Assembly: GCA_030323885.1 (NCBI GenBank)
Contig: CM059188.1
Location: 112,126,763 to 112,190,762, forward strand
DNA length: 64,000 nucleotides
Reading direction: 5' to 3'
Origin: Branchipolynoe longqiensis
Lineage: Eukaryota > Annelida > Polychaeta > Phyllodocida > Polynoidae
Shown: positions 11,878-60,081 of the stretch, piece by piece
How positions within the stretch are numbered: position 1 is the first letter of the stretch
How the letters are laid out: every line of letters starts with the position of its first letter
Translations under genes and position numbers: made by a program
The notes under the pieces: generated by a model
The model's database searches: none
Seen by the model: the letters and a program-made list of their open reading frames with translations, nothing else
Told to the model about the DNA's origin: nothing

Positions 11878-12607
11878 TTAAGCCCCACTCACACATAGCC
11901 GGACGAGCCCCGGATTTTGAGCCGGACCACCCATGGATCAACGGCCCGGACTGTCCCGGACCGCCATGGATAAAATCACTGTTTTCGTCGATTTTTGCCT
12001 CGCAGTCACACTTTCCCGGACGAGCCCCGGACGAGCCCCTGACCACCCGTACCACCGCCGGACTGCCCCCAGTCTGGGGCGGACCGCCCCCGGACGAGGC
12101 CGGACCACCCCCGGACTGCCCCGGACCACCCCCGGACTATCCTAGATCACCCCCGGACTTTCCCGGATCACCCCCGGTCTTACGGGGGCAGTCCGGGAGT
12201 GGTCCATGGCTAGGCCGGGGGTAGTCCTAGATAGTCCGGGGATGGTCCGGGTCAAACCATTGCTCAAAATTACCTCGGACCACCCCCGGACAGACCCGGT
12301 CCACCCCGGACCACCCCCGAAATACCCGGACCACCCCCGGACCACCCCCAGATCAGGCCGGATCAGGCCGGATTGAGCCCAGATCGCAAAATCCCCCAGA
12401 CCACCCCTGATGTTTTAAACATTTTAAAACATCCAGGGCTGAGCCCGGACGGCGCCGGACGAGCCATGGATCAGGCCGGATCAGGGGGTGTCGGCACAGA
12501 TGAGCCACGGACGAGTCATGGATCACCCCGGATCTCCCCGGACCACCCCGGATGGCGGTCCGGGGCTCGTCCGGCCCCTGAACCGGGTATGTGTGACTTG
12601 GGCTTTA
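11878..12607 (-). mobile_element. PAL element 1 (CCGGACCACCCC words)
   Basis: Inverted ends TTAAGCCCCACTCACAC (11878-11894) and GTGTGACTTGGGCTTTA. The interior is made of CCGGACCACCCC, CCGGACGAGCCC and CATGGATCA words, with the strand of the words switching several times. The near-palindromic centre is at 12409-12433 (GATGTTTTAAA on each side). Same subfamily as 16412 and 42013 but inverted relative to them. A second internal terminus-like CAGTCACACTTTCCCGG sits at about 12004. Confidence 0.85.
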
Positions 12608-12934
12608 GTATCCCACAATGCATCCTTAAAGTTGCACAGTCTGAAGGTTTTGAGTTTGTGTCATTATTCTGGGACAAATATATTAGATTGATATATTGTA
12701 ATCTGCCTTACTTCAGTTTGAAGTAACTTTTATTTTAAATGGTGGCTAATTTTGAAGATATTTGAAGTGCAAAAGTGTGAAATTAATTTTAGCAAGCATG
12801 CCAAAACTCTGACGCCATAGGCTTCTGCAGTAACAGATTCTATTGGATTGATTTAGTGTTCCCTTGTATGTAGCAGCAAATGCGTAATAAGTGCATCAGT
12901 ATCTAAGTTAGATATGTAGAATCAAATTTAGATA

Positions 12935-13391
12935 CAGTCTGCTCTGGCTATAATGGAGCCCCATGGGACTGGAGCAAGATGTCGCTATAGAGAGATCTGT
13001 TATAGGCAGAGACTGACTGACGGAATGGGTTGAAACCAATGTTTTTCTATTATACTTGACTGGCTAGGATGGTCCTGATAAAGTCATTTGTACAATTTGT
13101 CATTTGTACAATTAGTCATTTCTACTATTCATCACTTGTACAATTTGTCATTTCTACAAATTGTCATTTGTACAATCGGTCATTTGTACAATTAGACATT
13201 TCTAATATATTATAACTATACAGCATGTCGCTATTGACAGAGAATATTGATCAAATAGGTGAAAAGACGGCTCGTTGTCCGCATAAGACAATGATATTAA
13301 ATTAAAGGGGTGCCGTGATGGGACCAGCACTTTTTGCCGTTATTGACAGAGATTCGTTATTGACAGAGGCTGTTATTGACAGAGTAGATTG
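12935..13391. mobile_element. Pogo-like MITE inside MITE-D (457 bp)
   Basis: Ends CAGTCTGCTCTGGCTATAAT and the inverted TTATTGACAGAGTAGATTG, flanked on both sides by TA (12933-12934 and 13392-13393). Removing it rejoins the MITE-D text. Inside is GTCATTTGTACAATT repeated about eight times. The right end repeats TTATTGACAGAG three times. Confidence 0.82.
13083..13205. repeat. 15-bp tandem repeat (GTCATTTGTACAATT)
   Basis: About eight imperfect copies within the pogo-like MITE. Variants include GTCATTTCTACAA and ATCACTTGTACAATT. Confidence 0.88.
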
Positions 13392-13688
13392 TAATTGTTT
13401 TGAAAATGTGAAGCTTTACGGGATTATGCAGCTTTAATGCTTACGGCATATCTGTTACTAGCAGATGAGACGGTTTTCTTTAGTCTGCTCGCACTACCCA
13501 TTACGGTGCTAAATTCCAAAGGCCACATTAATCATTCATCGTTAAGCATCGGGTTCCGACAATCTGTGAAAATAACTCTTCCAGAATTCCTGATCAGGAA
13601 TTGCCAGGAATGTTGGTTTTCAACATTTATAAGAACCAAGTCAACATAGAGAGACTGCATACTATTGTACTAAACCTGCGCAAAGTAA

Positions 13689-14022
13689 AGCTTGTTTTAT
13701 TTAACGACGCCTCTAGAGCACATTGATTTTCATCATCGGCTATTGGATGTCAAACATATATGGTCACTCTGACATATTTCTCTGGAGGAAACCTGCTGCC
13801 ACCTCATAGGCTATACTTTCCGATAAGCAGCAAGGGGTCTTTTATATGCACTTTCCCACAAACAGGACAGCACATGCCACAGCCTTTGAGGAACCAGTTG
13901 TGGACCACTGGTTGGAACAGAAAATAGCCCAAACTGTAAATGTGTCCACTGAGCAGGATTGATAGGATGACCCACACATTCACAGGTGAACACTCTACCG
14001 CCTGAGCTACGTCCCGCTCCTA
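13689..14022 (-). mobile_element. SINE-E, minus strand, full length
   Basis: The tRNA-like head on the minus strand (14022 downward) reads GGGACGTAGCTCAGGCGGTA, then GAGTGTTCACCTGTGAATG. The conserved core includes CAGTTGTGGACCACTGG, CTTTTATATGCACTTTCCCA (as complement) and GCTATTGGATGTCAAACAT, and ends in TTTTATTTAACGACGCC. A second copy lies at 62078-62950. To my knowledge this SINE type is widespread in mollusc genomes. Confidence 0.9.
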
Positions 14023-14162
14023 AAACTGCACAGAAACTTTGCATGTTCACAAGTACTATGCTTGAACATAGTGTATTTATTCCTTTAACTAACTATTCGC
14101 TGGTATTAAGTTATACCCTATTCTGGCCAGAGGGTATCTGAGTCATGCTCAAATTCTATCTT

Positions 14163-14400
14163 GAAGATTTAAAGATTTATACTGCCTATCATGGATAAGT
14201 CTGAATAGACTTGTTTTCACCATTAGACAGTTTATTGAAAGGAAGCCAGAGCCTACGCTTTTGCTGACTCAAAGGATTTTTAACCTCTCACACCACATAG
14301 ACATGATATGAGAGCAACCAGCCTTTGATGACACTGTAAGTTATACACAGCGGTGGAAATACAAATTGGCAGATGTTGGGGGGGGGGGGGCATGGGGAAT
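14163..14400 (-). mobile_element. SINE-B, minus strand, head-truncated
   Basis: Contains TTCACCATTAGACAGTTTAT, CACACCACATAGACATG, AGTTATACACAGCGGTGG and AATTGGCAGA in the same order as 26003-26272. A G-run at 14378-14390 replaces the usual start of the head. No tRNA-like part remains. Confidence 0.88.
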
Positions 14401-14402
14401 TC

Positions 14403-15235
14403 TTAAAACTGCATAGTCCGATGAAAACAAGGAAATATTCAAAACCGACGCAATTATCTAGATTTGATTCTACATAACCAACTTAAGATACCGGTGCACT
14501 TATTAAGCATTTGTCACCCCACAGAAGTGTCAAATTTCTGACACCATAGTGTAAAGTTGACGGCTGGCGGTATGAGTGGTGTGGACAGGCTAATGAGAAA
14601 TCAATACAGGTAATGAAGGAAAGTAGATAAAGAGTGAAAGGTAAGAGAGAGAGACTCTCTCATTTATTACTTTTATAGGTTCCAGAACAAGATGGTGGTG
14701 ACCACATGATCCAATCTTCCAATCCCTAACAAGCATTCCTCTAACCACCAATGAGGGTTCAATAGCCCTGTCACCAAGGCATGGTTAGGTCTGTCTCTGG
14801 GACAGGGATCCATAAATAACTCTAGAGGGGAGGGAGTATGTGAGGCAACTTCTCAAAGACTGTCCATCTAAGAAGTGACACTCTTTCTCTATACTATTTT
14901 ACTATACACTTTCTATCTTTATGAGTAATAGTTTACCAACTCCACATATCCCTCATATGCCTTGGGTTTTATTTATTACCATTTACCATTTTATAGACAA
15001 GTTGCAATTTATTATAGTAGAGTTCATATATCCCTCATATGTCATAATATCGGAAGATTTTACAATAGGCTTCAGCCGTGACAGGTCTTATTAAATTGGC
15101 TTAGTATGCCCTTCTATGCAGCACCAAATACTGAATAAGCCCATTAGTATATAACTAGGACATGTAAGATCAAATCTTGGTAAATGTTTTGGTTTGAAAA
15201 TGTGATGCTTGCTTCAAACTATGCAGCTTTAATCA
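14403..15235. mobile_element. MITE-D copy 2, split by a solo LTR
   Basis: The left end TTAAAACTGCATAGTCCGAT (14403) and right end ACTATGCAGCTTTAA (15235) are inverted repeats of each other. The internal text matches the copy at 28395. An inverted LTR at 14550-15064 splits the word CACCATAG/GCTTC. Confidence 0.88.
14550..15064 (-). mobile_element. Solo LTR, minus strand, TSD ATAG
   Basis: Ends TGTAAAGTTGACG and GAAGATTTTACA, flanked by ATAG at 14546-14549 and 15065-15068. It matches the copy at 62152-62677 (inverted): CCTCATATGCC, TTACTCATAAAG-like and AGTCTCTCTCTCTTACC-type text. TG..CA ends, length of about 515 bp and a 4-bp TSD support a solo LTR. Confidence 0.87.
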
Positions 15236-15256
15236 TTGAATGACACCAGTTCCAAT

Positions 15257-15746
15257 TTAAGCCCCTGTCAGACCTTGCCGGACTGGGGAACCGGACACTG
15301 TCCGGTACTGTACGGCGATGTTTGGGTACCGTCCGGTACCCATCCGGCGGTGTCCGGTGGTGTCCGGCGGTCTCCGGTACAAGTTTTGAACATGTTCAAA
15401 ACTTCTACCGGACTGACGTGTCCGGTTGGTGTCCGGTATGTCCGGTACCCATCCGGTACCCATCATTACATGTCCGGTACCCATCCGTTGGTGTACGGTT
15501 TGTCCGTTTTTGTCTGGTATATGTCCGGTACCCATCTGTTACGTGTCCGGTTCTTGTCCGGTTCTCGTCCAGTACATGTACGGTACATGTACGGTACTTA
15601 TCCGGTTGTCCGGCGGCAATTAACCCAATTTTAGTCTCCATTTCGATACATTTCGATAGATTTCTTCACCGGACAACACCGGACTAGAAAATTCTTTGTC
15701 CGGTGGTCTCCGGTACTCAGTCCGGTACGGTGTGACAATGACTTTA
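15257..15746. mobile_element. PAL element 2 (CCGGTACC words)
   Basis: Ends TTTAAGCCCCTGTCAGACC and CGGTGTGACAATGACTTTA. The arms consist of CCGGTACCCATCCGG, TGTCCGGTGG and GTACATGTACGG words. At 15381-15404 lies an exact 24-bp palindrome (AAGTTTTGAACA followed by its reverse complement), the cleanest form of the family centre. The centre sits 125 bp from the left end and 340 bp from the right. Confidence 0.88.
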
Positions 15747-15945
15747 GGCACATGTGGTGGGATTGGTCAAACAAGACTCAGTTTGTCAATCTTTGATGAC
15801 CGAAAAAAAAATCACCATTAAATTTGCGTGCGAACGGTAATTAACGGGCGAAAGAAAGGTATTTTTTTTAGACAAATTTTACCTGACATGATTTCCAATA
15901 AGTGAGCTTGACCGCTCCACCGTGGATGGACTTTTTCTCATTCTT

Positions 15946-16257
15946 GTTGTTGTTGTTGGTTGTTGTTTTACATCCTAGCAACATCTAAGGTCATATCAGG
16001 ACGTGTACCGTCTTGTGACAGTCGTACTCATGCCAGCACAAGTCAGGCCGGCAGCACAATGACCCAATATCCGATTCAGTCACATTATCCTGACACTGAG
16101 CTAACCAGTCCTTGCCCTATCCTATTAATGCCAAGCACCAGGCTAGGAAGTGACAAGTATCAATTTAATAGGTTATTGGTTTGACTAGACCGGGAACCTA
16201 ACTCCCGACCTTCTGGACGCGAAGCTCGCGCTCTACCGATTAGGCCACCGTGCCCGG
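15946..16257 (-). mobile_element. SINE-A, head type 1, with 12-bp TSD
   Basis: Inverted copy with the head at its right end (complement of GGTGGCCTAATCGGTAGAGC) and a GTTGTTGTTG-type tail at the left. Bracketed by TTTCTCATTCTT at 15934-15945 and 16258-16269. The central block is damaged: the CAGTGGGGCAGCACTATAAA segment is missing. Confidence 0.92.
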
Positions 16258-16411
16258 TTTCTCATTCTTTTCAAATCACACCAAATACCTTTTGTGATCA
16301 ATGCTACTGCTATGTGTACTGTATGGTACTCTGTTATATACAGACTGTCATATACCGACCAATAAACAAATGTTCTTACTGATCATGAAACAGACATCTA
16401 ACGAGTCTTTA

Positions 16412-17084
16412 TTTAAAGCCCCAGTCACACTACCCGGATCAGGGGCCGGACCAGCCCCAGATGGTGATCCGGCGTGGTGCGTGGCGATGCGGCGTGATCC
16501 ATGGCTGGTCCTTGGTGATCCGTGGCTGGTCCAGCCTCATCCGGGGTCCCCCCGGATGTTTTAAACTGTTTAAAACATCCGGAGTGGTCCGGGGCATTTT
16601 GCAATTCCTGGCTCGATCCGGCATCGTCTTGGATGATCCGGGGGTAATCCGGGGGTGGTCCGGGTCGTCTGGGGGTGCCCCGGGGGTAGTCCGTGTACCA
16701 TCCGGGGCCACGGTTTAACCCGGACCAGCCCCGGACTAGCCCCGACATAGCCACGGACAACTCCCGGACTGCCCGGATAAGACCCGGACAAGCCGGATGA
16801 GCACGGATTAGCCATGGATCGCCACAGAGCAAGTCCACTTCAAATCCGCGACTACTCCGTGGACACACTGAGTAGTCTGGGGGGTGGTCCGGCTCAGTCC
16901 GGGGGCGATCCGGCCTCTGGTATGGGGCTAGTCCGTGGCTCATCTGGGTAGGTGTGACCGCGAGGCCAAAAACGACCAAAATGGTGATTTTATCCTGGGC
17001 TGTCCGGGACAGTCCAGGCGACTGGTCCGGGGGTGGTCCGGCTAAAAATCCGGGGCTCATCCGGGTAGGTGTGACTTGGGCTTA
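16412..17084 (+). mobile_element. PAL element 3 (CCGGGGGTGGTCC words)
   Basis: Ends TTTAAAGCCCCAGTCACAC and GTGTGACTTGGGCTTAAA. The centre at 16554-16580 has 13-bp perfect arms (GGATGTTTTAAAC on each side) around one base. Words include CGGGGGTGGTCCGG, GATCCGTGGCTGG and CATCCGGGG. Near the right, GGTAGGTGTGACCGCGAGG (about 16949) is an internal copy of the element's own end. Confidence 0.87.
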
Positions 17085-17309
17085 AAAAGTAATACATATT
17101 AAAGCTGTATAATCCGATTAAACAGTTAAACCCTGTATTAGATATGGGTTTCCTCTGTGTTGATGCCCAAGTATTATTATTATACTGGAATATATTGAAA
17201 CCAACGCCTAGCATAATTACAATACGGCCAGATTCCCACGGCTGTAAACCCAACATTGCTTCGGGTTGAAGGTTAATGGTCTTTAATAATGCATTACTGC
17301 TCTTCATTG

Positions 17310-17668
17310 AGAGACCAGACGGGGTGGCCGAATGAGTTGAGCATCCGTCTCCTGTTTTGGGGGATCGGGGGATCTGAACCCATGGGATCATCTGTTCAAA
17401 CCCTTGTCAAGTCAAACCAAACACTTAAAATTGTATACTTGTCGCTTCCTAGCCAGGCGCTCGGCATTATTAGGATAGGGCAAGGACTGGTTGGCTCAGT
17501 GTCAGGATAATATGACTGAGTGGGATATCAATCAGGTCATGGTGCTGGTGGCCTGGTCTCCCAGTGCGGCAGCAATATAAAGTTGCCATGAGTGCGCACT
17601 GTCACACATTGATACCCGTCCTGATATGACATTAGATGTTTCTAGGACGTAAAACAACAACAAACAAA
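17310..17668 (+). mobile_element. SINE-A, head type 2, with 10-bp TSD
   Basis: Head GGCCGAATGAGTTGAGCATC, followed by an expanded GGGATCGGGGGATCTGAACC region. Full body, and tail AACAACAACAAACAAA. CTCTTCATTG at 17300-17309 and 17669-17678 is the target-site duplication. Confidence 0.93.
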
Positions 17669-17972
17669 CTCTTCATTGGTCTTGTTGGGAATAGAGTTAT
17701 GTCTAACCACATTCATTGTCATACACTCACTTAGACTAGGCTCTTTAACTCATTTATAATGTATATCAACGACCAGCATTACAATACTTGAGAGACCAAG
17801 ATGGACCGCTCTTTACCATAAAAGAAGAAGAAAAAAGATTATACTGGTTAAGACATTGAATATAATCCGACGTTGTCCTGATATATTAGACATATATACG
17901 ACGGACACTGGTCAACATCTGGTGGAGGCGAGCTGGGCCGAGATGACGCCATCGGTAGAGTGTCTTACGGAG

Positions 17973-18032
17973 TATAATAATGATAATGATAATGATAATT
18001 ATTATGATAATGATAATAATAATAAATATTCC
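17973..18032. repeat. (AATGAT)n / (AAT)n microsatellite
   Basis: AT-rich microsatellite followed by ATTCCCTTCCGTGAGATTAT and ACTCGCATAATACGTTAT. Nearly the same post-repeat sequence follows the AAT run at about 51749-51785, so this is the 3' end of a dispersed repeat rather than an isolated microsatellite. Confidence 0.75.
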
Positions 18033-18068
18033 CTTCCGTGAGATTATACTCGCATAATACGTTATTCA

Positions 18069-18394
18069 TTAAACCCCAGTCACACTATGGCTTGTGACCA
18101 CTTGCGACCACTTTGCGACCACTTTGAACCACAGTCGCCAGCGACCTCCTTGCGACTAAAGCAATGGTGACTGACCTCTGGCCGACCAGATTGGTCGCAA
18201 AGAGTTTTTAGTGCAGTAGCTGCAACCTCCTTGTGACCATTCTGATCGCAAGGAGGTCAGCGACAACTGGGGACCACTTTGCAACCATTTTGCAACCACT
18301 TTGTGACCACTTTGCGACCAATTGCGACCTCTTTGCGACCAATCCTTTTTGGTGGTCGTAAAGAGGTCGCAAGCAGTAGTGTGACTGGGGCATA
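18069..18394. mobile_element. PAL element 4 (GCGACCACTTT words)
   Basis: Ends TTAAACCCCAGTCACACT and AGTGTGACTGGGGCATAA are inverted repeats. Arms are built from TTGCGACCACTTTGCGACC and TTGCGACCTCTTTGCGACC, switching strand near 18195-18260 (GGTCGCAAAG, GCAAGGAGGTC). Smallest member (326 bp). The usual TTTTGAACATGTTC centre is not evident. Confidence 0.82.
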
Positions 18395-18616
18395 ATTTGT
18401 TAATTTCAATTATAAGATACTTTTGTAAACCTATAATTTCAAATGTCAGAAAAGGCCGGAGGGTGGGAAAAATTCACGTGACGTGAAGACCAGGACAGAG
18501 TGGTGGCCGGGTAAGTGTGGGCCTGCGTATATATGAATAAGAGAATGGCCACCGTGGGGTAGGGGTGATGGCGAGGTTGATTGTTGAAGAGCAATACAAG
18601 GGCCGGATATTTGTCG

Positions 18617-18918
18617 AGTGTTCTCTGTGGCAGAGTGGTTAGAGTGTCTGACTTTTTTCTAGGTTGGACTCCTAATCTGAAGGTCGGTGGTTCAATCCAC
18701 CAAGCCATCACCTCTGCCAATATGGACGTCCACCGATGTGCATAATTTACAGCATCATTAAAGGTTGTTTGCTCTTAGACCATATCTATTTGGTGGGGGA
18801 GGTAAATTTTCCCTTGGGTTGGTAAAAGTGTAGGTTCTAGCTTTCTATCGACTAACTGTCTAATGGTGAAAACAAGACTATTCAGACTTATCAATAATAG
18901 GCAGGATAAATCTTCAAG
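18617..18918 (+). mobile_element. SINE-B, plus strand, full length
   Basis: Head GTGGCAGAGTGGTTAGAGTG, TCTGACTTTTTTCTAGG, GGACTCCTAATCTGAAGG, GGTGGTTCAATCC. The body has CCACCGATGTGCATAATTTA, CAGCATCATTAAAGG and CTGTCTAATGGTGAAAACAA. The CTCCTAA loop with CAGA/TCTG-like flanks resembles tRNA-Arg(CCU), which is an inference. A T6 run lies between the A and B boxes. Confidence 0.9.
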
Positions 18919-19010
18919 AGAGAGAGACACACTCGAGCATGTCTGCGGGTATGGTCAGCTGGTCTCTGTCAGTCTCAGGCACTGTGACCTGGAGCGGTGA
19001 TGGTCGGATT

Positions 19011-25148: not shown

Positions 25149-25730
25149 TTTAAGCCCCAGTCACACCTTACCGGACTAAGTACCGGCCACCACCGGACAA
25201 AGGATTGTCTAATCCGTTGGTGTCTGGTGTCAAAATGTATCGAAAGGTGTCGAAATGTTGCGCTTTCAACGGACAAGGAACGTACATTAACGAAAAACCG
25301 AATGTCAAACGGACGGACCGGACACCAACCGGACACCAACCGGACACCAACCAGACACCTACCAGACTGATTACGGATGCGCCAAAAACAGATTTTAAAA
25401 AACGTCGGACCGAATAACCGCAGCACCATCAATGGACACACACTGCAGGAAGCAAACCGGGGATGTAACGGATGGGTAATGGACATGAAACGGACAAAAC
25501 GGACAAAACGGACTTAAACCGGACACTAACCGTACACGCCAGTCCGGCGGTGACCGGTACAAGTTTTGTGCATGTTCAAAACTTGCCACCGTACACACCG
25601 GACACCACCGGACACAGTACGGACACACCGGATGCCAACCATATATAAAGCGTACATTGCCGTATTTCACCGGACAGTGTCCGTTTTCTATCCGGTACCC
25701 CAATCCGGTGAGGTGTGACTGGGCCTTTAG
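25149..25730. mobile_element. PAL element 5 (CCGGACACCAAC words)
   Basis: Ends TTTAAGCCCCAGTCACACC and GGTGTGACTGGGCCTTTAG. The end similarity extends inward (CTTACCGGACT versus CTCACCGGATT). Arms contain ACCGGACACCAACCGGACAC, AACGGACAAAACGGAC and CACCGGAC words. The centre AAGTTTTGTGCA..TGTTCAAAACTT lies at 25561-25584, 146 bp from the right end. Confidence 0.87.
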
Positions 25731-26410: not shown

Positions 26411-26480
26411 CAGACTAGGAAGGCTCGGGAAAGTTGTTACTCTTGCCGGTGTATGGAGTCCGACATTAGAATTGTTCTCA

Positions 26481-27174
26481 ATGCCTGCTCAAATACGCGT
26501 TAGTGAACGCAGTTGAATGTAGTGGAGGCTAACCTAGTTGAACGTGGTTGAACGTAGTTGAACATAGTTGAATGTAGTTGAACATACCGGCATCCATACT
26601 TCTCCATGATGAGAACGTGATAAGAAGGTGTGTGGGCCGTGAGTTCTGATTTAGGTTTTGGACATGTTCAAAAGAGAGATACGTTTGAGGCAGACATAGC
26701 CTCTGTGATCATAACGTATTCTAGCATATTCTAGCATACTCTAGCATACTCTAGCGTACTCTAGCATACTCTAGCATACTCTAGCATATTCTAGCATACT
26801 CTAGCATAATCTAGGATACTCTAGCGTAGTCTAGCATACTTTGACCCGCACAAAACCTTGGCCGGTCTGCCATTAGTGGACGAAGTTGAACATAGTTGAA
26901 CATAGTGGAGGGTAACATAGTTAAACATTGTTCAACGTAGTTCAATGTAGTTCAATGTAGTTCAACATAGTTGGATGTACCGGGATCCATACTGTAATGT
27001 ACCGGGATCCATACCATAACGTATTTGTCCGTACTATTAGGTGGGTGATCAACCAAAACCTGCCGTACCTTAACCTAGTTTAACGTAGTGATAGGACGTT
27101 TCACCCACGTCAATCTATCCTATGTTTAACGATGTTCAACTACATTCACTAACGTTTATGTGACCAGGGCTTCA
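26481..27174. mobile_element. PAL element 6 (AGTTGAACATAG and CTAGCATACT words)
   Basis: Left end ATGCCTGCTCAAATACGCGT TAGTGAACGC and right end inverted, GTTTATGTGACCAGGGCTTC. Read inward, both give ACGTTAGTGAA(T/C)G then AGTTGAA. The centre TTTTGGACATGTTCAAAAG is at 26656-26674. The arms use AGTTGAACGTAG on both strands plus a CTAGCATACT run (26715-26838). The ends are more diverged than in other members. Confidence 0.75.
26715..26838. repeat. 10-bp tandem repeat ACTCTAGCAT
   Basis: Twelve near-perfect copies (variants with CATATT, GGATAC, GCGTAG) inside PAL element 6, just right of its centre. This shows how arm words can expand as tandem repeats. Confidence 0.9.
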
Positions 27175-28394: not shown

Positions 28395-28749
28395 TTAAAG
28401 TTGCATAGTCCGATGAAGCATCACATTTTCAAAACCAAAACATTGACCTAGATTTGATTCTACATATTTATCTTAGATACTGGTACAGTTACTAAGCATT
28501 TGTTATCACATAGAAGGGCATGGGGAGTCAATTTAATAGAACCTGTTACTGCATAAGCCTATGGCATCAGAGTTTTGGCGTGCTTGCAAAAATAATTTGG
28601 CACATTGTCACTTCAAATATCTCCAAAGTTAGCCATTTAAACTATATAAGTTACTTCAACCTAAAGTAAAGTAGCTTATAATGATCAATTTAATGTATTT
28701 ATCTCAGAAAATGACAGAACCTCAAAGTCATCGGACTATGCAGCTTTAA
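28395..28749. mobile_element. MITE-D, intact reference copy (355 bp)
   Basis: TTAAAGTTGCATAGTCCGAT at the left and CATCGGACTATGCAGCTTTAA-type text at the right form terminal inverted repeats of about 20 bp bounded by TTAA. Internal landmarks: CTAGATTTGATTCTACATA, AACCTGTTACTGCATAAGCC, TGTCACTTCAAATATCTCC. TTAA at both ends suggests piggyBac-type targeting, an inference. Confidence 0.88.
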
Positions 28750-34865: not shown

Positions 34866-35660
34866 GTGAGTGTGTGTGGGTGTGGGTGTTGGTGGGTGTT
34901 GGTGGGTGTTGGTGGGTGTTGGAGGGTGTTGGTGGATGTTGGTTGGTGTTGGTGGGTTTTGGTGGTTGTCAGTGCGTGTTGGAGGGTGGTGGAGGGTGTT
35001 GATGGGTGTTGGTGGGTGTTGGTGGGTGTTGGTTGGTTTTGGTGGGTGTTGGTGGGCGTTGGTAGGTGTTGAAGGGTGTTGTATGGTGTTGAAGGGTGTT
35101 CGAGGGTGTTGAAGAGTGTTTGTGGGTGTTGGTGGGCTTTCGTGGGCATTGGTGGGTGTTGGTGGGTGTTGAAGGGTGTTCGTGGGCGTTGGTTGGTGTT
35201 GGTGGGTGTTGGTGGGTGTTGGTAGGTGATGAAGGGTGTTGAAGGGTGTTGAAGGATGTTGGTGGGTGTTGGTGGGCGTTGGTGGGTGTTGGTGGGCGTT
35301 GGTAGGTATTGAAGAGCTTTGAAGGGTGTTGGTGGGTGGTGGTGGGTTTTTGTGGGTGTTGGTGGGTTTTGGTGGTTGTCAGTGGGTGTCGGAGGGTGGT
35401 GGAGGTGTTGGTGGATGTTGGTTGGTGTTGACGGGTATTGGTGAGTGTTGGTGGGTGTTGGTGGGTGTTGGTGGGTGTTGGTGGGTGTTGGTGAGTGTTG
35501 GTGGGTGTTGGTGGATGTTGGTTGGTGTTGGTGGGTGTTGGTGGGTGTTGGTGGGTGTTGGTGGGTGTTGGTGGATGTTGGTGGGTGTTGGTGGGTGTTG
35601 GTGGGTGTTGGTGGGTGTTGGTAGATGTTGGTTGGTGTTGGTGGGTGTTTGTGTGAGTGT
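34866..35660. repeat. 10-bp array GGTGGGTGTT
   Basis: About 79 units of 10 bp, T/G only on the + strand, with GAAGGGTGTT and GGTTGGTGTT variants. Encodes V/G/C/W repeats on + and H/Q/P/T/N repeats on -. Strong strand asymmetry. Confidence 0.95.
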
Positions 35661-42012: not shown

Positions 42013-42661
42013 TTTTAAGCCTTAGTCACACCTACCCGGTTCAGGGGCTGGACAAGGCCCGACCCGTGATCCGGCGTGGTCTGTGGCAATCCATGGCTCA
42101 TCCGTGGCTGGTCCTTGGTGGATCTTGGTGATCCTTGGTGATCCCTGGCTGGTCCGGCCTCATCCGGGGTCGGCCCCAGATGTTTCAAAATGTCTTAAAC
42201 ATCCGAGGCGATCCGGGGAATATTGCAATCCGGGCTCGATCTGGCATCATCCGGGTGTAATCTGGGGGTGGTCCGGGGGTACTCCGGGGGTGGTCCAGGG
42301 GTGGTCCGGGGGTGGTCCGGATGACCACAGATTAACCCCAGATCACCACGGATAGCCGCAGATGACCACATATTACTCACAGACTACCCCAGGATGAGTA
42401 CCGCATTTCAGGCTCTCATCCGGGGGTTAACCGGGGCTCATCCGGTGGTTGTCCGGGGCTCATCCAGGTAGTCGGGGGGTTGTCTAGGACTCATCCAGGG
42501 TGATCTGGGCTTGTAGTCCGTGGCTCGTCCGGGTAGGTGTGAGAGCGAGGCAAAAATAGCGATTTTATCTGGGGCTGTCCAGGACAGTCCAGGCGAGTGG
42601 TCCGGGGGTGGTCCGGCTAAAAATCCGGGGCTCGACCGGGTAGGTGTGACTTGGGCTTTAG
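42013..42661 (+). mobile_element. PAL element 7 (CCGGGGGTGGTCC words)
   Basis: Ends TTTAAGCCTTAGTCACACC and GGTGTGACTTGGGCTTTAG. Same subfamily and orientation as 16412: CACACCTACCCGGTTCAGGG at the left, GGTCCGGCTAAAAATCCGGG at the right. The centre at 42180-42204 (GATGTTTCAAAATGTCTTAAACATC in two halves, GATGTTT / AAACATC) is decayed. Internal end-like GGTAGGTGTGAGAGCGAGG at about 42532. Confidence 0.86.
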
Positions 42662-43509: not shown

Positions 43510-43960
43510 AGCCATGTTCACACGGGCGATTTAATCCGCCTCATATAAAGCGCCTTGCCTAGTTCGCCTCACATTTTGCTGTGTGAACGTGACGTCAAGG
43601 CGGATTAGGGCTGAATCGATTCATATGATTCGCTTTATATAAACCACCTAGCGAGGTAGTTTATATGAAGCGAACTAGCTTAGGTCGGCCCATCTCGCCC
43701 GTGTGAACGCAACCGACTTACTTGAGGTGGATTAAGGACGTCACACTATATAATATAATTTGGTTTATGAAACCGGTAGCTGTGCACAGATATTTTTTTC
43801 ATCATTTATTTTTAGGGTTTCACTGCCCAGCAGAAGCTTTGACCGTTTCAAACCAATACGATTCAGTCAATACATATCTAGGTCGAACCCACACTCTCTC
43901 GTGCCAACATCGACAAACCCAAAATGGCGCTGGTTAGTCTGGACTTGCCAGCAGAGTACG
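43510..43960. mobile_element. Relative of the 38873 TIR element, right end lost
   Basis: Left AGCCATGTTCACACGGGCGA has an inverted partner TCGCCCGTGTGAACGC at 43695-43710, giving a hairpin of about 200 bp. Beyond it, 43762-43958 matches 39123-39312 (GCTGTGCACAGATATTTT, TTTTTAGGGTTTCACTGCCC, ACCAATACGATTCAGTC). No right terminus is found. Confidence 0.72.
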
Positions 43961-49549: not shown

Positions 49550-49566
49550 AACCAGCAAGTGTAATG

Positions 49567-50020
49567 GTGCTGTCACATTACGACGTTTCGTCGGGAGACG
49601 TCTGGAAGCATTACGCGTGTGTTAGGTGCGCATTGGATTTTGTTGATGGACGGCGATGTTTTGTGCTTGCACAAAACTTTGGACGTGCGACGACGCGCGG
49701 GTGCCAACATTATGGCGACGTTAGGGGCATCGAGATACGTTAAACGCGCCTGAATAACATTATGCGAACGTTATGCACAAGCTGCGCGCGCATGAGGCTC
49801 GTTACCACACATTGCGCCAAATGGTTGCTTTTTGTTGTTTTATGTCCTACCAACATCTAAGGTCATATCAGGACGGCACGCCAAACTTTTACCACGTCGG
49901 CCACACACTACCAATACGTTGCGCTGATGCCAAAAAGTTTGACGTGTCTCGATGATTAAAAGTGATTTTGCGCATTGGCGGCATGCCGGCGAGATATGTG
50001 GTAGTGTGACAGGGCTATAA
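49567..50020. mobile_element. PAL element 8 (ACGTTATGCGACG words)
   Basis: Ends GTGCTGTCACATTACGACG and GTAGTGTGACAGGGCTATAA. The centre GTTTTGTGC-TT-GCACAAAAC is a perfect 9+9 inverted repeat at 49658-49677. Arm words include GACGTTAGG, GCGACGTT, AACGTTATGC and GCGCGC. A SINE-A tail piece has inserted in the right arm. Confidence 0.82.
49834..49878 (-). mobile_element. SINE-A tail fragment inside PAL element 8
   Basis: TTGTTGTTTTATGTCCTACC to GGTCATATCAGGACGG. Only about 45 bp of the 3' end are present, on the minus strand. The PAL-type word text continues on each side. Confidence 0.85.
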
Positions 50021-51410: not shown

Positions 51411-51419
51411 ACAAACTCA

Positions 51420-53543: not shown

Positions 53544-53805
53544 TTTGTTTGTTTGTTGTTGTTTTACGTCCTAGCAACATCTAAGGTCATATCAGGACGG
53601 GTACCGACTTGTGACAGTGCGCACTCATGGCGACTTATAGTGCTGTCCCACTGGGAAACCAGGCCACCGGCACCATGACCTGGTATCCCACTCAGTCACA
53701 ATTTTAAAGTCATTGGTTTGACTCGACCGGGACTCGACCCCACGACCCCACGATCTACCAACACGGGAGACGGACGCTCTAACTCATTCGGCCATCCCGT
53801 CTGGT
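53544..53805 (-). mobile_element. SINE-A, head type 2, internally deleted
   Basis: Tail GTTTGTTTGTTGTTGTTTTA. The body jumps from ACTCAGTCACA to ATTTTAAAGTCATTGGTTTG, losing about 80 bp. Head complement at 53770-53805. Inserted at the edge of the G-rich array. Confidence 0.9.
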
Positions 53806-54205
53806 GGGGGGTGGGGGGGGGGGGGGGGTGGACACGTGTGTACGTGTAGTTGTGTTGGCTTTCCCAATGGCTGTGGATGACTTTAATTGGTTGGCCTGCT
53901 GCTTAATCATTGTGCTCGTTGTGACACGTCTCCGGGGGGGGGGGTGGCGGGAATGGGGGGGGGGGCGGGGGGGTGGGCGGGGGGGCGGGTTGACGGGGCG
54001 AAAGGTGGCCGGGGGCGGGAGGCGGTCGGCAGGGAGTGTTACTTTTATTTCGGCTACTCGGTAACCAACAATAAAACCTAAACATCCTGTCCGTAATGCA
54101 TGGTTTAGCATCACAAGCCTCCCCCTAACCCCACCCCAAGTTACAATCGAAAGCAGCTGGGTTCGAATCCCACTCCCATCATAGGCCCGGAGTCCGGCCT
54201 TGAAT
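53806..54205. other. G-run-rich spacer
   Basis: G-runs at 53811-53828 and 53934-53990 (GGGGGGCGGGGGGGTGGGCG) separated by ordinary sequence. No gene. Confidence 0.55.
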
Positions 54206-54560
54206 TGATGGCTTTTCTGCTCCCGCCCCACCCTACCTCCCGCCCTGCCTCTCCTCCCATCCCGCCTCACCTCCCGCCCGGCCTCGCCTCCCGCCTCGCC
54301 TCACCTCCTGCCCCGCCTCGCCTCCCATCCCGCCTCACCTCCCGCCCGGCCTCGCCTCCCGCCCCGCCCTACCTCCCGTCCCGCCTCACTGCCCGACCCA
54401 CCTCACATCCCTTCCGCCTCACCTCCCGCCTGGCATCACCTCCCTGCCCCACTTCACCTCACTCCCCCACACACACCCCTACCCCACCTCACCCTACCCC
54501 CCCCCCCCGCCCCACACACACACTCATACCGGCCTCACCTCCCGCCCCACTCGCCTCCCT
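54206..54560. repeat. CCTCACCTCCCGCC-type minisatellite
   Basis: C-rich array of CTCGCCTCCCGCC, CTCACCTCCCGCC and CCATCCCGC words with an approximate 15-20 bp period, trailing into CCCACACACAC text. Confidence 0.92.
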
Positions 54561-55056
54561 CCGCTACCTGGTATTTACAGGGATTCAGATCGGATAAAAC
54601 AGCCTCTTTTTGTTGCTGTGTTTTTGCTAGTCTTTAATCCGATCCGGTATTCTGTTTACGGCCGGGGTCCCCTCCATTGTTTTGTATGCAAGGAAACAAA
54701 AGCAAAACACATAAAAACGTCGTCCCAAGAATGGCCCTGTTACCTAATATTTATCTTCATGGTTTTAAGATAAAATTTCAAATGGCATTCGGTGTTTCTT
54801 TTTTGGAGCTGTTGACCTGCTTCTTCGCCGGGCAGTTATGTGAGCTCACAATCCTAACTGCTCAGGCCACTCCAGTCGTAGAATAATGTTGTTGGGAGTT
54901 TTACGTCACGCCAAAATCTAAGGTCATATCAGTGGGCCTGTATGCATGATGCGGTGTTAGCTTACACTCGGTGTGTTTGCGCTAACACCGCTCCTTGCGT
55001 ACTGAGTTTTCGCCCCTAACCTAGAAATTCCCGCCAAAACCAGTTTTGTCAGACTA
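54561..55056. other. Spacer with SINE tail scrap
   Basis: Unique-looking up to 54889. Then 54890-54932 is a SINE-A tail fragment (GTTGTTGGGAGTTTTACGTC, AAGGTCATATCAG), and 54934-54985 has GGCCTGTATGCATGATGCGG resembling the end of the TIR element at 27625. Confidence 0.5.
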
Positions 55057-55065
55057 GGAAGCGAC

Positions 55066-55473
55066 TAGATAAAAGATTCACCCGGTACTTGTAGTACACG
55101 GGTGAAGGACAACATCGTGTAAATACGGGCGAAAATAGGTTTAGTATGGAACATGAACTAGAAACTGTGGCTCCAGTATCAAATGGCTACCCATATAGGC
55201 ACAGAGTTGGTGAAATGGGCGAGAATGCAAAAAGACAAGATGGCGGCACTAGAACGGCGTCGATTTCACTTTTAAATCTTATTAAAATAGATATTTTATT
55301 ATATTTTTCAACTCAAAGGCAGCGGGTAAATATGAACACACCTACAAAGAATGAATGTTGCTTCTTAGATTGTGAAATTAGGCTCTCATTTCATTTCCCC
55401 GTATTTTCGACCATTTTTATATAGGGTTGGTATTCACCCGTGTACTGCGAGTACTGGGTGAATCCTTTATCTA
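55066..55473. mobile_element. Mutator-like MITE, 9-bp TSD (408 bp)
   Basis: TAGATAAAAGATTCACCCGG (55066) pairs with the inverted right end (GGGTGAATCCTTTATCTA to 55473). Each end is itself a hairpin (TTCACCCG..GTACT..AGTAC..CGGGTGAA). GGAAGCGAC flanks it at 55057-55065 and 55474-55482. A 9-bp TSD with long TIRs fits the Mutator superfamily. The 92-codon frame inside has no recognisable domain. Confidence 0.85.
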
Positions 55474-55533
55474 GGAAGCGACATGTATGAATTTTGAAAG
55501 CTGATTAGGTTATGTCCTCCTCTACCTGAACTA

Positions 55534-55862
55534 CCGGGCGAGGTGGCCGGATCGGTAGAGCGCCGGCCTCGCATGCGGAAGATTGGGAGTTCGGTTCCCG
55601 GTCAAGTCAACCCAATGATTTATAAAAATTGATACTTGTCGCTTCCTAGCCTGGCGCTTGGTATTAATAGGATAAGGCAAGGACTGGCTAGCTCAGTGTC
55701 AGAATAATGTGACTGAGTGGAATATCAGTCATGGAGCTGGTGGCCTTGTCTCACAGTGGGGCAGCACTATAAAGTAGCCATGAGTGTGCACTGTCACAAG
55801 TTGGTACCTTTCCTGATACGACCTTAGATGTTGCCAAGAGATAAAACTCCAACAACCAACCA
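55534..55862 (+). mobile_element. SINE-A, head type 1, plus strand
   Basis: Head GAGGTGGCCGGATCGGTAGA, GCGCCGGCCTCGCATGCGGA, B-box-like GGGAGTTCGGTTCCCGG, full body, tail AACTCCAACAACCAACC. Among the best-preserved type 1 copies. Confidence 0.94.
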
Positions 55863-55929
55863 ACCATGCTCTAAAAATGCATAGTCCCATGCTTTAGAGT
55901 TTCTACCCTAGTTTTCTGTATATATATAC

Positions 55930-56275
55930 ACATTGTTTGTTTGTTGGTAAAACAATTTATTCATCAGAACATACACTTGTTCACTGCCGAGGCACTGGTC
56001 TTCCGACCGTTTACATTGCATTGTAAATAGGTAGATCAGCGGGTATTTAGGTAGGGCATATTAGTAGAGTATAATGGTGGTTAGTGTGTTAGTGGGTTAG
56101 CCATAATATTATTAATAAGTTATGGGTTAAGCTGGTGGGTCGCAAAAACTGTGCTGCTATTATGGGTGTATGTGATGTGGGTGGGTGAGAGAGGTATGCA
56201 GGTATTGCAGGTATAGCAATACCTCAGGGAGGTTAACGCCCCTGCCCTGCAGAGTTGTAAACCACTGCCTTGTGG
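55930..56275 (-). mobile_element. Retroposon 3' end related to 46715-47301
   Basis: GTTTGTTTGTTGGTAAAACA, CATCAGAACATACACTTG and GCCGAGGCACTGGTCTTCCG correspond to the left end of the insertion at 46715. The remainder is unplaced. Probably the 3' end of a LINE- or SINE-type family. Confidence 0.7.
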
Positions 56276-56279
56276 TACA

Positions 56280-56640
56280 GGTTCTTGACAGAACCGAAGG
56301 CTAAGGGAGCAAACCCTAAACAGAAAACCATGTCACTGTGGCAGCATTAAGGGCGGTTGATGTATAGAACTCCCAACATCTCCCGACCAGCCACTGCAGG
56401 GACAAATAGTTTGCGCCTGTCTTGACATGTTCTTGCCGGTGTGAAACCTCTATTTGCTCCCCGAGAGAGTGCCGCTGGTAACTTGCAAAAGCCAGCAGCA
56501 CTTCAACACTTTTGCAGGCAGCTTCCATGGACGCAACTCTCACAGCAGAGAGCTAAATGGAGAGCAGCAGTCAAGTAATGAAAGCAGTCTTTGTCGCATC
56601 GCGACCGACAGCATGATGATGATGATGGATTGATAATTAT
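56280..56640 (+). mobile_element. Dispersed LINE-tail repeat, plus strand
   Basis: Inverted relative to 41060-41420, about 90% alike. The last 110 bp encode WTQLSQQRAKWRAAVK on + and a (GAT)n tail ends at about 56630, matching the LINE tail at 39768. It lacks the 10-bp AGATATTTCA segment of the 41-kb copy. Confidence 0.8.
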
Positions 56641-56689
56641 AATCTACCTTACTTTAGTTTGAAGGAGCTTATATCTGAATGTCTAAGTA

Positions 56690-56737
56690 GTAAATATGGA
56701 GTAAATATTTGTATGCCTAGCCAGGTGAGCTTGTACG

Positions 56738-56778
<41 letters not shown>

Positions 56779-57190
56779 TGCTTGGGTTATAGCCGAGTTC
56801 CATGTGGATGACATAGTGAGTGCTGGCAGGCTGAGTGCAGTGGAACTCAGGACCTCGCCCTTCTGCCTGAGTAGGGGTCAACACAATTCAGTAGGGGGTC
56901 AACACAATCAGGCTGTGAGGAGCAACCAGGTCAAGGTTGGTTGTGGCCAGGCAGCCGCTAGTCATGGGCAGACTACCAGTTGCCATGGGGGACTGGGAAT
57001 GCTGTTCTCCTATTGGGTAACTGGGGCGGCATGACACCCTACCAGGGAACCTGGGTACTAAAAAAAATAAAGATAGAAGGCTTGTCTTCCGTTACTCTCT
57101 TCACTCTTATTTTCTGTTTCTTCTTGTCTGTATCGTATTTCCCTACAGCCTACTTGCACGGCCACAGATCCGGGTACCAACTCTACACTA
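56690..57190 (+). mobile_element. LTR-like sequence, ends uncertain
   Basis: Parallels the LTR at 40270 in order: GTACGTATGTGTATATATAT run, CTGGCAGGCTGAGTG, AGTTGCCATGGGGGACTGG, CCTATTGGGTAACTGGGG, AATAAAG, a CT-rich leader and CCACAGATCCGGGTACC, ending near CTCTACA. No convincing TSD, so the boundaries are approximate. Confidence 0.6.
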
Positions 57191-57342
57191 TGTTCGAGTA
57201 TGGCAGCGTAGCACTGTAGCACAGGAGCATCAAACTACAATAAATACCCAATAATGAATAAAGCAGCTGGTCAATAATGAATACGAGACTATCTAAGTTC
57301 ATAATATAGGTTCAAACCTAGACAGGTTGGGTGGTGATACCA

Positions 57343-57419
57343 GGGAGCCTAGGTGGTGTAATGGTTAGCATACTGTCCCGGAATGCAAGAGATGTGGGTT
57401 TGATTCCCGCTCAAGGCAC
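57343..57419 (+). mobile_element. tRNA-derived sequence (SINE head or tRNA pseudogene)
   Basis: GGGAGCCTAGGTGGTGTAAT GGTTAGCAT supplies an A-box region, and GTGGGTTTGATTCCCGC a good B box. The putative acceptor ends (GGGAGCC and AAGGCAC) do not pair and the anticodon stem is unclear. A functional tRNA is therefore unlikely. Confidence 0.6.
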
Positions 57420-57526
57420 AATATTTCCCATTTTCATCCTCCCCTCCGCCCCACGACAATAGCTTTTTAAAGCGCGGGCGTGATAGGGGATCAATCCCGG
57501 GGGGTGGGGGGGAGGGTAGGGCACAT

Positions 57527-57656
57527 AGTCATAGCCATAGCCATAGCCATAGCCATAGCCATAGCCATAGCCATATAAATAGCCATATAAATAGCCATAG
57601 CCATAGCCATAGCCTAGCCATAGCCATAGCCATAGCCATAGCCATAGCCATATCTA
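57527..57656. repeat. (CCATAG)n hexanucleotide repeat
   Basis: About 20 copies of CCATAG with two CCATATAAATAG and one CCTAG interruption. The minus strand reads Ala-Met and Trp-Leu dipeptide repeats. Confidence 0.95.
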
Positions 57657-58009
57657 GACATTTCTTTTGGGGAATGGTCAAGAGAAATTCTTGTAACGGA
57701 CAAGTGCCGGCGAGGCATTTGGACGGCTGGGGGGGGGGGGGGTGCTCCCCAGGAAATTTATAATCCATAGGCTCTGAAATGCCACTTCCAGCTATTTCTG
57801 GGGAGTTTTTAACAGGGGAACTCTCCAACCCCTTTCCCTCCCCGCTAGCTATAGCCCTGTCCCCCATTTCGATTTCCACAAAGTCGATATTCGCCTCAGT
57901 CGCTCAGACCTCGAGCCGCATATCGCGTAATAACTGCTTTGAAGGGAGACAAATTGGAAGATGAGGGGAAGGTCGAGTCGAGAGATGCGTTTGTAATGTC
58001 CTGTTAGCA
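57657..58009. other. Unannotated spacer
   Basis: Contains a G-run at 57729-57742. No gene or element recognised. Confidence 0.4.
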
Positions 58010-58945
58010 GTTTGTCTGTGTGTATGTGTGTCTGTGTGTCTGTGTGTCTGGGTGTTTGGGTGTCTGGGTGTCTGGGTGTCTGGGTGTCTGTATTTATGTG
58101 TGTTTGTTGTCTGTGTGTCTGTCTGTCTGTGTGTCTGTGTGTCTCTGTGTATGTGTGTCCGTGTGTCTGTCTGGTTGTCTGGTTGTCTGGTGTGTCTGTG
58201 TTTCCATGTGTCTCTGTGTGTCTGCATGTCTGTGTGTATGTGTGTCCGTGTGTCCGTGTGGCTGTGTGTCCGTGTGTCTGTGTGTCTGTGTATGTGTGTC
58301 TGTGTGTATGTGTGGTTGTGTGTCTGTGTTTCTGTGTGTCTGTGTGTTTGTGTTTGCATGTGTCTCTGTCTCTGTGTGTCTGCATGTCTGTGTGTCCGTG
58401 TGTATGTGTGTCCGTGTGGTTGTGTGTCTGTGTGTCTGTGTGTATGTGTGCCTGTGTGTATGTGTGTATGTGTGTCTGTGTGTATGTATGTCCATGTGTC
58501 TGTGTGTCTGCATGTTTGTGTGTATGTGTGTCAGTGTGTATGTGTGTCCATGTGGTTGTATGTATGTGTGTATGTGTGTCCGTGTGGTTGTGTCTCTGTG
58601 TGTCTGTGTGTCTGTGTGTCTGTGTGTCTGTGTGTATGTGTTTCCATGTGTCTCTGTCTGTGTGTGTCTGCATGTATGTGTGTATGTGTGTCCGTGTGTC
58701 TGTGTGTCCGTGTGTATGTGTGTCTGTGTGTATGTGTGTCTGTGTGTCCGTGTGTATGTGTGTATATGTCTGTGTGTTTGTGTTTTCATGTGTCTCTGCC
58801 TCTGTGTGTCTGCATGTCTGTGTGTATGTGTGTCCGTGTGTCTGTGTGTCCATGTGGTTGTGTGTCTGTGTGTATGTGTGTCTGTATGTATGTGTGTCTG
58901 TGTGTCTGTGTGTATGTATGTCCATGTGTCTGTGTGTATGATGGT
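58010..58945. repeat. TGTGTGTCTG-type minisatellite
   Basis: About 930 bp of TGTGTCTG, TGTGTATG, TCCGTGTG and GTGGTTG words; almost no A or C outside fixed positions. Open in all + frames (V/C/S) and all - frames (H/T/Q), up to 378 codons; artefactual. Confidence 0.95.
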
Positions 58946-59334
58946 GCTGGTAGGGTGGGAGGGCGGGTCTCCACACCGTCATCAAAATGAATCAGAGAAT
59001 AATCGCACAGTTGACAAATATCGTATTAAAATCATGCGCATGTGCAGTGCACGGATACGTGAGAGAACTCCTTAAATGATGTATTCGCGCCCTATCGTCA
59101 TATTGCCGTGAGACAATGGCGCTGTAGACGCGAATATTACATGGTGTCCGTAAGTGGATGGCCCTGCAGGGCTAATGAGATTCCGTGGGGCGCATGCGCA
59201 CAGCACCCGGTCTGTAACACAAAAACAAATAGAGGGGGGTGGGAGGAGGGTAGGCGGACCACACTTTTGTGGCCTGGGAGTGGAAGCCAACATGGCGGCA
59301 GTTTGTGACATTGCGAGTAAGACCAGCCTTAAAC
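58946..59334. other. Unannotated spacer
   Basis: Moderate GC, apparently single copy. Includes GCCAACATGGCGGCAG at about 59287. No supported gene. Confidence 0.4.
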
Positions 59335-60081
59335 TTAAAGGGCCTGTCACACTACGACGTATGGCATCAGCGCGTGCCCAACGTACAACAATTTGCCAGT
59401 ACGTCAGCATTCGTCGAACTTTGCAGGGACGGGGGATAAAAATGGGCGTACACACAACATACAAACAACGTACACACAACATATGTAACGTATGCAGAAT
59501 GTATCTCTGACCTATTGATAATGTATGAGAACATTCAGGTGCCTCGCAAAACATTCGAAAACATTTGCAAAGCGTTCACAAAATGCTTGCATACACTCAT
59601 GGTATGCTGACCAATGTTACATACATTACTTCATCGCTAGAAGTATGGCATATACATTAAGTACGCTGGAGACACAGCAGGCATACGTTTGAAGTATGTT
59701 AGGAGTATGTTATGCATCCGTTGGCTGTACGCGGACTGCGCATTCCCAACCGGCTGAACGTATGGCTAACGTGTTCCAACCTATCCCGACCTACCCCTAA
59801 CATGTGCATAACATACGCCGATGTATTTCGAGTGTATGAAAAACGTATGAGCCATATGGTGACATACGTTGAAAACTTTGAACATGCACAAAATTTGTTT
59901 AGCGGCTCGACCTATGCCGACCTATGCTGACCTATGATGACCTATGATGCCGTATCCCAAGCATACTCGCCGTATGCCCAACATATATGCAACGTATGAC
60001 ACCGTATGCCGACGTGTTGGTAGAAAATCGCATACGTTGCCATACGGTAAGGCCATACGTCAAAGTGTGACAGCCCCTTAA
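59335..60081. mobile_element. PAL element 9 (CATACGT / CGTATGG words)
   Basis: TTAAAGGGCCTGTCACACT (59335) and AGTGTGACAGCCCCTTAA (to 60081). End similarity extends inward (ACGACGTATGGC versus TTGACGTATGGC). Arms: AACGTACACACAAC, GTATGTTAGGAG, CATACGTTG, CGACCTATG. The centre AACTTTGAACATGCACAAAATT is at 59874-59895. TTAA is present at both outer boundaries. Confidence 0.86.

Follow-up and report, generated by a model that had tools for sequence, protein, structure and literature searches.

Nine palindromic elements of Branchipolynoe longqiensis as probable Harbinger-derived families with helically spaced subterminal words

Introduction

How can palindromic elements that share their ends carry arms built from different short words? 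Nine such loci lie in a 64-kb stretch (the window) of contig C3 (CM059188.1, positions 112,126,763–112,190,762) within the 1.85-Gb assembly of the polynoid annelid Branchipolynoe longqiensis (GCA_030323885.1), and a first-pass annotation, made from the letters alone, had taken them for an undescribed foldback-like class whose arms are rewritten. Our analysis of these loci and of their relatives across the genome instead suggests, with a probability of roughly 0.7, that the nine are non-autonomous, Tourist-like families of the PIF/Harbinger superfamily, and that their arms are helically phased arrays of putative sites for the elements' own Myb/MADF protein.

Results

Nine elements share terminal inverted repeats and a three-base target site

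All nine palindromic loci (E1–E9, Table 1) have definable boundaries, with a 14-bp terminal inverted repeat (TIR) lying inside a 3-bp direct repeat, so that the earlier report of nine elements with inverted ends at these places is borne out; the window contains 14 copies of the end motif AGTCACAC, where shuffled sequence averages 2.92. The TIR mostly reads N-GCCCC-W-GTCACAC (W, A or T) or a variant of it and is degenerate in E6. The flanking 3-bp copies, or target-site duplications (TSDs), are equal on both sides, being TTA or TAA (TWA) in eight of the nine elements and TCA in the ninth.

The same ends are abundant genome-wide. The motif GTCACACTACGACG has 32,835 exact copies, compared to 34 for its reversed control, and the 16-mer AAAGCCCCAGTCACAC has 4,243, compared to a single one. 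TWA stands directly outside the 14-bp TIR, whose first core base is A or T, at 28,559 of the 32,835 GTCACACTACGACG ends (87%), where our own arithmetic puts the chance level at ~2–4%. Among 100 listed ends, all from the first 8 Mb of contig C1, neighbours at most 1.5 kb apart were convergent in 23 cases, divergent in one and on the same strand in two, with ~0.5 convergent pairs expected. These counts and the convergent excess confirm that the inverted ends are paired and far above background. Moreover, 20 preset 10-kb blocks contained at least six elements whose TIRs are paired and whose TSDs match (L013, L015, L016, L020, L024 and L026), and copies genome-wide therefore likely number in the tens of thousands, a rough figure.

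Element lengths range from 215 to 1,097 bp in a set defined by a score of at least 24 and at most one TSD mismatch, plus two elements set by eye, a set hence biased toward matching TSDs; the G+C content is 0.64 in E1 and 0.42 in E6. The elements are short, bear TIRs, contain no transposase gene and occur in high copy number (as seen in the 32,835 exact ends of one type), as do Tourist-like miniature inverted-repeat transposable elements (MITEs). An assignment to piggyBac (TTAA), suggested by TTAA-like flanks, was rejected because the boundaries consist of TWA plus the 14-bp TIR and both TTA and TAA occur. The listed termini preceding WGTCACAC read N-GGCCC, N-GGGGC, N-ACCCC, N-GTAGC and similar, and do not show the CACTA terminal motif.

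Arm words vary while their spacing follows the DNA helix

Word counts per element bear out the description of arms made of repeated short words whose vocabulary varies by locus, except at E8 (49565), which has little word repetition. We counted identical 5-mers at each distance in 13 representatives of different word-types, taking the expectation from dinucleotide shuffles. Pooled pairs numbered 242 at a lag of 10 bp (104 of them supplied by E6 alone) and 379 at a lag of 11 bp, compared to 11 and 10 expected (621 versus ~21); lag 12 had nine pairs, lags 12–18 were near background, and more peaks appeared at 20–22, 30–33, 40–44 and 50–55. The top lag was 10 or 11 in 11 of the 13 representatives, and a separate autocorrelation test gave 10 or 11 in 21 of 26 stretches and 20 or 21 in three more. 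Spectral peak periods were unstable, many being ~5, and were left unused. The regularity is a spacing equal to the DNA helical repeat and not a hairpin symmetry: words vary between subfamilies, but the 10–11-bp spacing, which is absent from the first-pass annotation, is constant in most of them.

One word-type has an autonomous relative

A locus starting at C1:49,999,471 (L045/L010), which came from a preset position, is a decayed autonomous Harbinger element. At its left end, TAA is followed by the TIR AGGGGCGGTCACAC and CATACG-type words. The locus contains transposase pieces matching DDE_Tnp_4 (PF13359, 3.2e-6; another at 5.7e-5, below the curated cut-off), along with a third, N-terminal frame, which we read as the transposase start and which has no Pfam match. 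A MADF frame (PF10545, 3.1e-5, in L010) lies on the opposite strand, followed by a second CATACG array; the MADF protein matched nothing in a sequence search of the PDB. On our own reading, the locus seems to be interrupted by a sequence resembling a long interspersed nuclear element, and an element resembling a long terminal repeat retrotransposon seems to cut off its right end. Its left arm aligns with E9 at 73.6% over 397 columns (1.3e-69 in a two-sequence comparison), shuffled E9 doing no better than 0.67. A parent with a matching arm, a TIR, DDE_Tnp_4 pieces and a MADF gene marks E9 as a Harbinger derivative; the other word-types are provisionally assigned to Harbinger from their TIR and TSD.

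This region also records an insertion together with its empty counterpart. Within C1:49,998,801–50,010,000, a 658-bp L016-type element (79% against L016 over 697 columns) lies between two TTA copies, nested in an E9-type arm, and E9 at the matching point reads ACATG-TTA-GGGGTAGG, in which the single TTA represents the empty site.

A second autonomous element, extending from L029:759 to L032:366 on C1, is apparently complete: it spans 5.6 kb, has TAA on both sides, the TIR AGCCCCGTTCACAC and arms of repeated words, and contains a 315-aa DDE_Tnp_4 frame (PF13359, 3.3e-35) as well as its own Myb_DNA-bind_4 frame (PF13837, 2.1e-9). It is nested in another element, whose end is similar and whose Myb frame (PF13837, 2.1e-7) is related, the inner and outer Myb frames being 55% identical over 60 residues; the L010 MADF frame has no meaningful similarity to the outer one. 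An additional palindromic stretch like this Harbinger type (AGCCATGTTCACACGGGCGATTTAATCCGCCTCAT) lies at 43510–43750 of the window.

Comparison of 12 transposases of the genome with the window by tblastn gave no match. At nine of these 12 loci (L030, L031, L033, L035 and L037–L041), no WGTCACAC-type end was attributable to the locus's own transposase; in blastp, eight of the nine transposases group with L030, and L039 is Harbinger-like. The L034 transposase locus yielded merely a nearby MITE. L036 (1370–1420), L043 and L044 are three copies of one Harbinger-like transposase gene; each carries, at the same place in what reads as an intron, a short remnant of GCTGTCACATTACGACG, which is not their own end. 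Word-like repeats (GACGCATGGCAGACGC) lie upstream of the gene in L036, and at L031:1–400, near a transposase gene, GACTTTACCTGACC-type words of either orientation form a long array. L046 was rejected as an autonomous candidate, since its positions 77–3434 are a family MITE with a TAA TSD that is enlarged by internal TGTGTC and CACTGTACTACTA-type simple repeats of ~2.4 kb; L012 looks alike.

Alternative origins of the helical spacing

The alternative that survives best is ordinary minisatellite growth, in which slippage and unequal exchange would amplify a 10–11-bp subterminal unit, no protein would read the spacing, and related subfamilies would keep it by descent. Near-exact tandems do occur in the arms (ATTTTGATAC in L015 with 98% matches, TCTAGCATAC in E6 with 88%), such arrays are abundant in the genome, and L046 shows how far internal simple repeats can expand an element. 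However, differing words hold to 10–11 bp, a period found in 12 of 19 arrays inside elements, whereas the periods of tandem arrays outside the detected elements are scattered between 1 and 99. Spacings of 10 and 11 bp are also mixed inside single elements (25 and 33 pairs, respectively, in E2, 27 and 61 in L016, 27 and 13 in E9), which one fixed unit does not give, and an arm of the parent is likewise phased (J10armR, lag 11, z 5.7). We consider this explanation unlikely, although it deserves to be taken seriously.

It is rather improbable that the phased words instead act as a nucleosome-positioning or other chromatin signal with a 10-bp periodicity, or as a promoter array for the element's genes. 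The period does equal the helical repeat, and in the parent, on our own reading, one array immediately precedes the MADF frame and the transposase start lies downstream of the other; however, the arrays are kept by elements without a detected transposase, and the words are family-specific and varied in composition.

Arms diverge by ordinary mutation within lineages

We aligned the arms globally after trimming 30 bp from each end, scoring identity over aligned ungapped columns and leaving aside the parent and L029 arms. Among the best 45 pairs, E1, E3 and E7 form a first lineage with L002, L005, L007 and L008 (75–90% identity), a second unites E2 and E5 with L015 and L024 (71–84%), and a third joins E4 and L006 (83% over 146). 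E1, E3 and E7 are mutually 75–81% identical, with 68–70% in gapped blastn of E1 and E7 against E3, and E2 and E5 are 75% identical. L013 and L020, which are insertions at TAA and TTA on different contigs, share 92.9% over their length. Alignments between lineages beat simple shuffles, a result that shared periodic words may inflate and that is not relied on.

The proposal that ends and centre persist while arms are replaced wholesale is therefore not borne out, as lineage members align along their arms (three of the nine window elements in one lineage, two in another); the contrast that prompted it came from comparing members of different lineages. Copies within a word-type diverge through substitutions and indels (L013/L020, L047/L016), so that copy-by-copy rewriting is not needed.

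A palindrome like GTTTTGAACATGTTCAAAAC with at most six mismatches was found in 20 of 26 stretches but in only five of 80 random 550-bp windows. Allowing seven mismatches brings the counts to 22 of 26 and 22 of 80, and matches at this level therefore mean little. The palindrome lies 93–218 bp from one end in full elements; in eight later elements it lies 153–203 bp from an end, with one to five mismatches in seven and seven in one. It was not found in E4 (18073–18392), L006 or the L029 arms. The claim of a shared centre thus survives as a shared palindromic motif but not as a central place: among 20 full elements with at most seven mismatches, 14 have it at 0.21–0.28 or 0.73–0.77 of their length, and two near the middle. 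What endures of the first-pass annotation is a family whose members have their ends and a palindromic motif in common, with differing arm vocabulary and foldback-like inverted words.

A foldback-like class with arms rewritten by template switching along hairpins is very improbable: inverted words and folding better than shuffles (z ≤ −3.3 in 13 of 16 elements) would suit it, but good folding was likewise seen in two of the six random controls (z −8.7 and −4.1), leaving folding energy no clean discriminator, and the within-lineage alignments, with their ordinary divergence along the arms, give rewriting no support, no systematic chimera search having been made. Assignment to the known Foldback class was rejected on TSD length (3-bp TWA, with a single TTA at the empty site, versus the 8–10 bp of Tetris) and on the Harbinger parent. 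Nor is an undescribed transposon class supported, as the TSD, the TIR and the parent of one word-type, with its DDE_Tnp_4 pieces and MADF gene, point to PIF/Harbinger.

A binding-site model for the arms

Starting from what is observed, namely the presence of the words, their spacing and the parentage of one word-type, we infer that the words are bound, and bound cooperatively. Each element carries the 14-bp TIR together with long subterminal arms, both of which would derive from an autonomous parent, and each word is predicted to be recognised by the Myb/MADF protein of the element itself. With these sites on one face of the helix, many protein copies could load side by side, and the loaded proteins would attract the transposase and draw the ends of the element towards each other. 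Divergence between subfamilies would come from joint changes in the word and its DNA-binding protein, with the TIR, which is cut by the transposase, staying constant. Shared ends and arms suggest that the elements are mobilised in trans by a Harbinger transposase.

Published systems offer precedents for parts of this model. PIF/Harbinger elements are reported to use a transposase together with a Myb-like protein (PMC9710019, PMC2836001), and the Myb-like protein of the zebrafish element Harbinger3_DR is reported to bind a 9-bp subterminal motif (PMC9710019). Co-evolution of CACTA subterminal repeats with their binding protein has been raised (PMC2613891), and by analogy the subfamily-specific words would fit a co-divergence of site and protein. 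It is suggestive, at n=2, that our two autonomous types differ both in DNA-binding protein (MADF versus Myb_DNA-bind_4) and in spacing (10–11 bp versus a weak 14 bp).

A broader proposal, which we put forward tentatively and at somewhat less than even odds, is that many incompatible Harbinger families arose in this genome through changes in a lock-and-key pair, made up of the MADF/Myb protein and the subterminal word that it reads, while TIR and transposase chemistry stayed constant. Each new word would be amplified afresh in phase with the helix until it filled the arms, giving a cooperative landing strip on one face of the DNA, and the MITEs of each word-type would form a fossil record of a different DNA-binding specificity.

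Observations that weigh against the model

A number of observations count against the binding-site model, concerning parentage, spacing and flanks. Only the CATACG word-type has a known parent, one that has lost its right end, and nothing of the kind was found for CCGGAC, GACCAC or GTTGAAC words.

As for spacing, 43 pooled 5-mer pairs fall at lag 9, a distance also used in E5 (16 pairs), and E8 and L038 fail the 10–11-bp test. Both L029 arms lack this spacing, a 14-bp lag ranking first in one and second in the other, if weakly (z 3.2 and 2.2); helical phasing is therefore not universal in the superfamily. Eight elements retrieved for their differing TSDs had a top lag of 11 in five cases and 21 in two, L052 giving 5 and then 10, weakly; the five with lag 11 are relatives of L016, which makes this check only partly independent. 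Among control windows, 11 of 60 exceed z 3.5 at lag 10 or 11, most of these hits coming from simple repeats, from a minisatellite with a 10-bp unit and from three windows that overlap an element or a candidate. Outside the detected elements, 18 tandem arrays have period 10 and 11 have period 11; four of these 29 are E6-like arrays in L027 that the element detector missed. Opposite-strand words occur at ~1.6 times expectation and are not phased, and inversion of the arms is only partial.

As for the flanks, we compared adjacent convergent pairs less than 2.5 kb apart with TWA at both ends. The 100 listed ends yielded 25 such pairs; both copies agree in 16 of them, and the central base differs in the other nine (seven TAA/TTA, two TTA/TAA). 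Eight of the nine mismatched pairs were retrieved (L047–L054, C1:1.68–7.05 Mb), with paired TIRs present; in four of the eight, most of the element can be aligned with L016 or its J10 relative. L047 and L016 share 95.3% identity across 702 columns, and at least one mismatched-flank element is young. The TWA copies also differ centrally in L008 and L038, and L002 is flanked by TAA/TGA; by contrast, the eight TWA elements of the window have matching flanks.

Simple mutation would be expected to yield T[CG]A no less often than a central A/T swap. A side reading is that the copies differ because an excised element brings its own TWA overhangs; TSD-derived 5' overhangs are reported to have been inferred at mPing excision (PMC4561436). 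This reading fits poorly with mPing insertion, where a TCA-flanked element is reported to have entered TTA or TAA in 45 of 46 insertions (PMC4561436), which argues against carry-over of donor flanks there.

Coordinates of the nine elements and further features of the window

Table 1 Boundaries, target-site duplications and arm words of the nine elements (window positions).
Element	Position	Strand	Words or lineage	TSD	Left TSD copy	Right TSD copy	Further features
E1	11881..12604	.	CCGGAC-word lineage	TTA	11878-11880	12605-12607	Internal GTCACAC motif ~125 bp in from the left; palindrome ~183 bp in from the right
E2	15260..15743	.	CCGGTACC words	TTA	15257-15259	15744-15746	Boundary by eye; core palindrome GTTTTGAACATGTTCAAAAC, perfect, ~134 bp from left end
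E3	16417..17082	.	CCGGAC lineage	TAA	16414-16416	17083-17085	
E4	18073..18392	.	GCGACCACTTT words, 11-bp spacing	TAA	18070-18072	18393-18395	Boundary by eye
E5	25153..25726	.	CCGGACACC words, lineage of E2; spacing 11 bp, partly 9 bp	TTA	25150-25152	25727-25729	
E6	26481..27171	.	AGTTGAACGT and TCTAGCATAC words, 10-bp spacing	TCA	26478-26480	27172-27174	Boundary by eye; degenerate TIR
E7	42018..42657	.	CCGGAC lineage	TTA	42015-42017	42658-42660	
E8	49565..50017	.	ACGACG-type ends	TAA	49562-49564	50018-50020	Weak phasing
E9	59339..60078	.	CATACGT words	TAA	59336-59338	60079-60081	Arm common to the autonomous-type Harbinger starting at C1:49,999,471

In the computations, E2 was analysed as 15259–15744, off by one base on either side, and E6 as 26485–27171; the flanks of E4 were printed as TTA/TAA by a script whose left boundary was one base off. 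E8 holds a piece, ACATCTAAGGTCATATCAGGACG (window 49835–49880), that is seen again elsewhere in the window and looks, by eye, like part of a short interspersed nuclear element. Outside the nine elements, two long minisatellites with a 10-bp unit lie at 3205–4375 and 34882–35653.

Discussion

If the words are binding sites, a single genome contains a large number of site arrays that serve related Myb/MADF proteins, evolved separately and have a spacing tuned to the DNA helix, and repeat-rich palindromic elements are explained without a new transposition mechanism. Family independence and protein–target co-evolution would then be testable largely from sequence. The PIF/Harbinger class itself is known; what would be new is a set of Harbinger MITE families whose subterminal arrays are specific to each family and phased with the helix. 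A literature search covering titles and abstract openings, with most subscription journals outside its reach, found nothing on helically phased Harbinger arms.

Several known systems resemble the elements in part. Foldback elements such as Galileo and Tetris are described as having long inverted arms with internal repeats (PMC4079207), and those of Galileo are said, in work cited there, to hold extra transposase-binding sites. However, Tetris, with its TSD of 8–10 bp, has been proposed to belong to Mutator and Galileo is placed in the P superfamily (PMC4079207), whereas the TSD here is a 3-bp TWA and the affiliation is to Harbinger. CACTA (En/Spm) elements likewise have family-specific repeated subterminal motifs, read there by a TNPA-type protein (PMC2613891), but their terminal motif and transposase are unrelated, and the available part of that source does not mention helical spacing.

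Tourist-like MITEs such as mPing are closer, being short elements with a TIR and a 3-bp TTA/TAA duplication as described in PMC2836001 and PMC4561436; the elements described here differ in their long phased arms, off-centre palindrome, many word-types and often differing central TWA base. Closest are the PIF/Harbinger elements Harbinger3_DR and Ping/Pong, which share the TWA target, the short TIR and the combination of a DDE transposase with a separate Myb/MADF gene. The elements of B. longqiensis differ from these in carrying hundreds of base pairs of subterminal words, mostly 10–11 bp apart, whose identity varies by subfamily within one genome.

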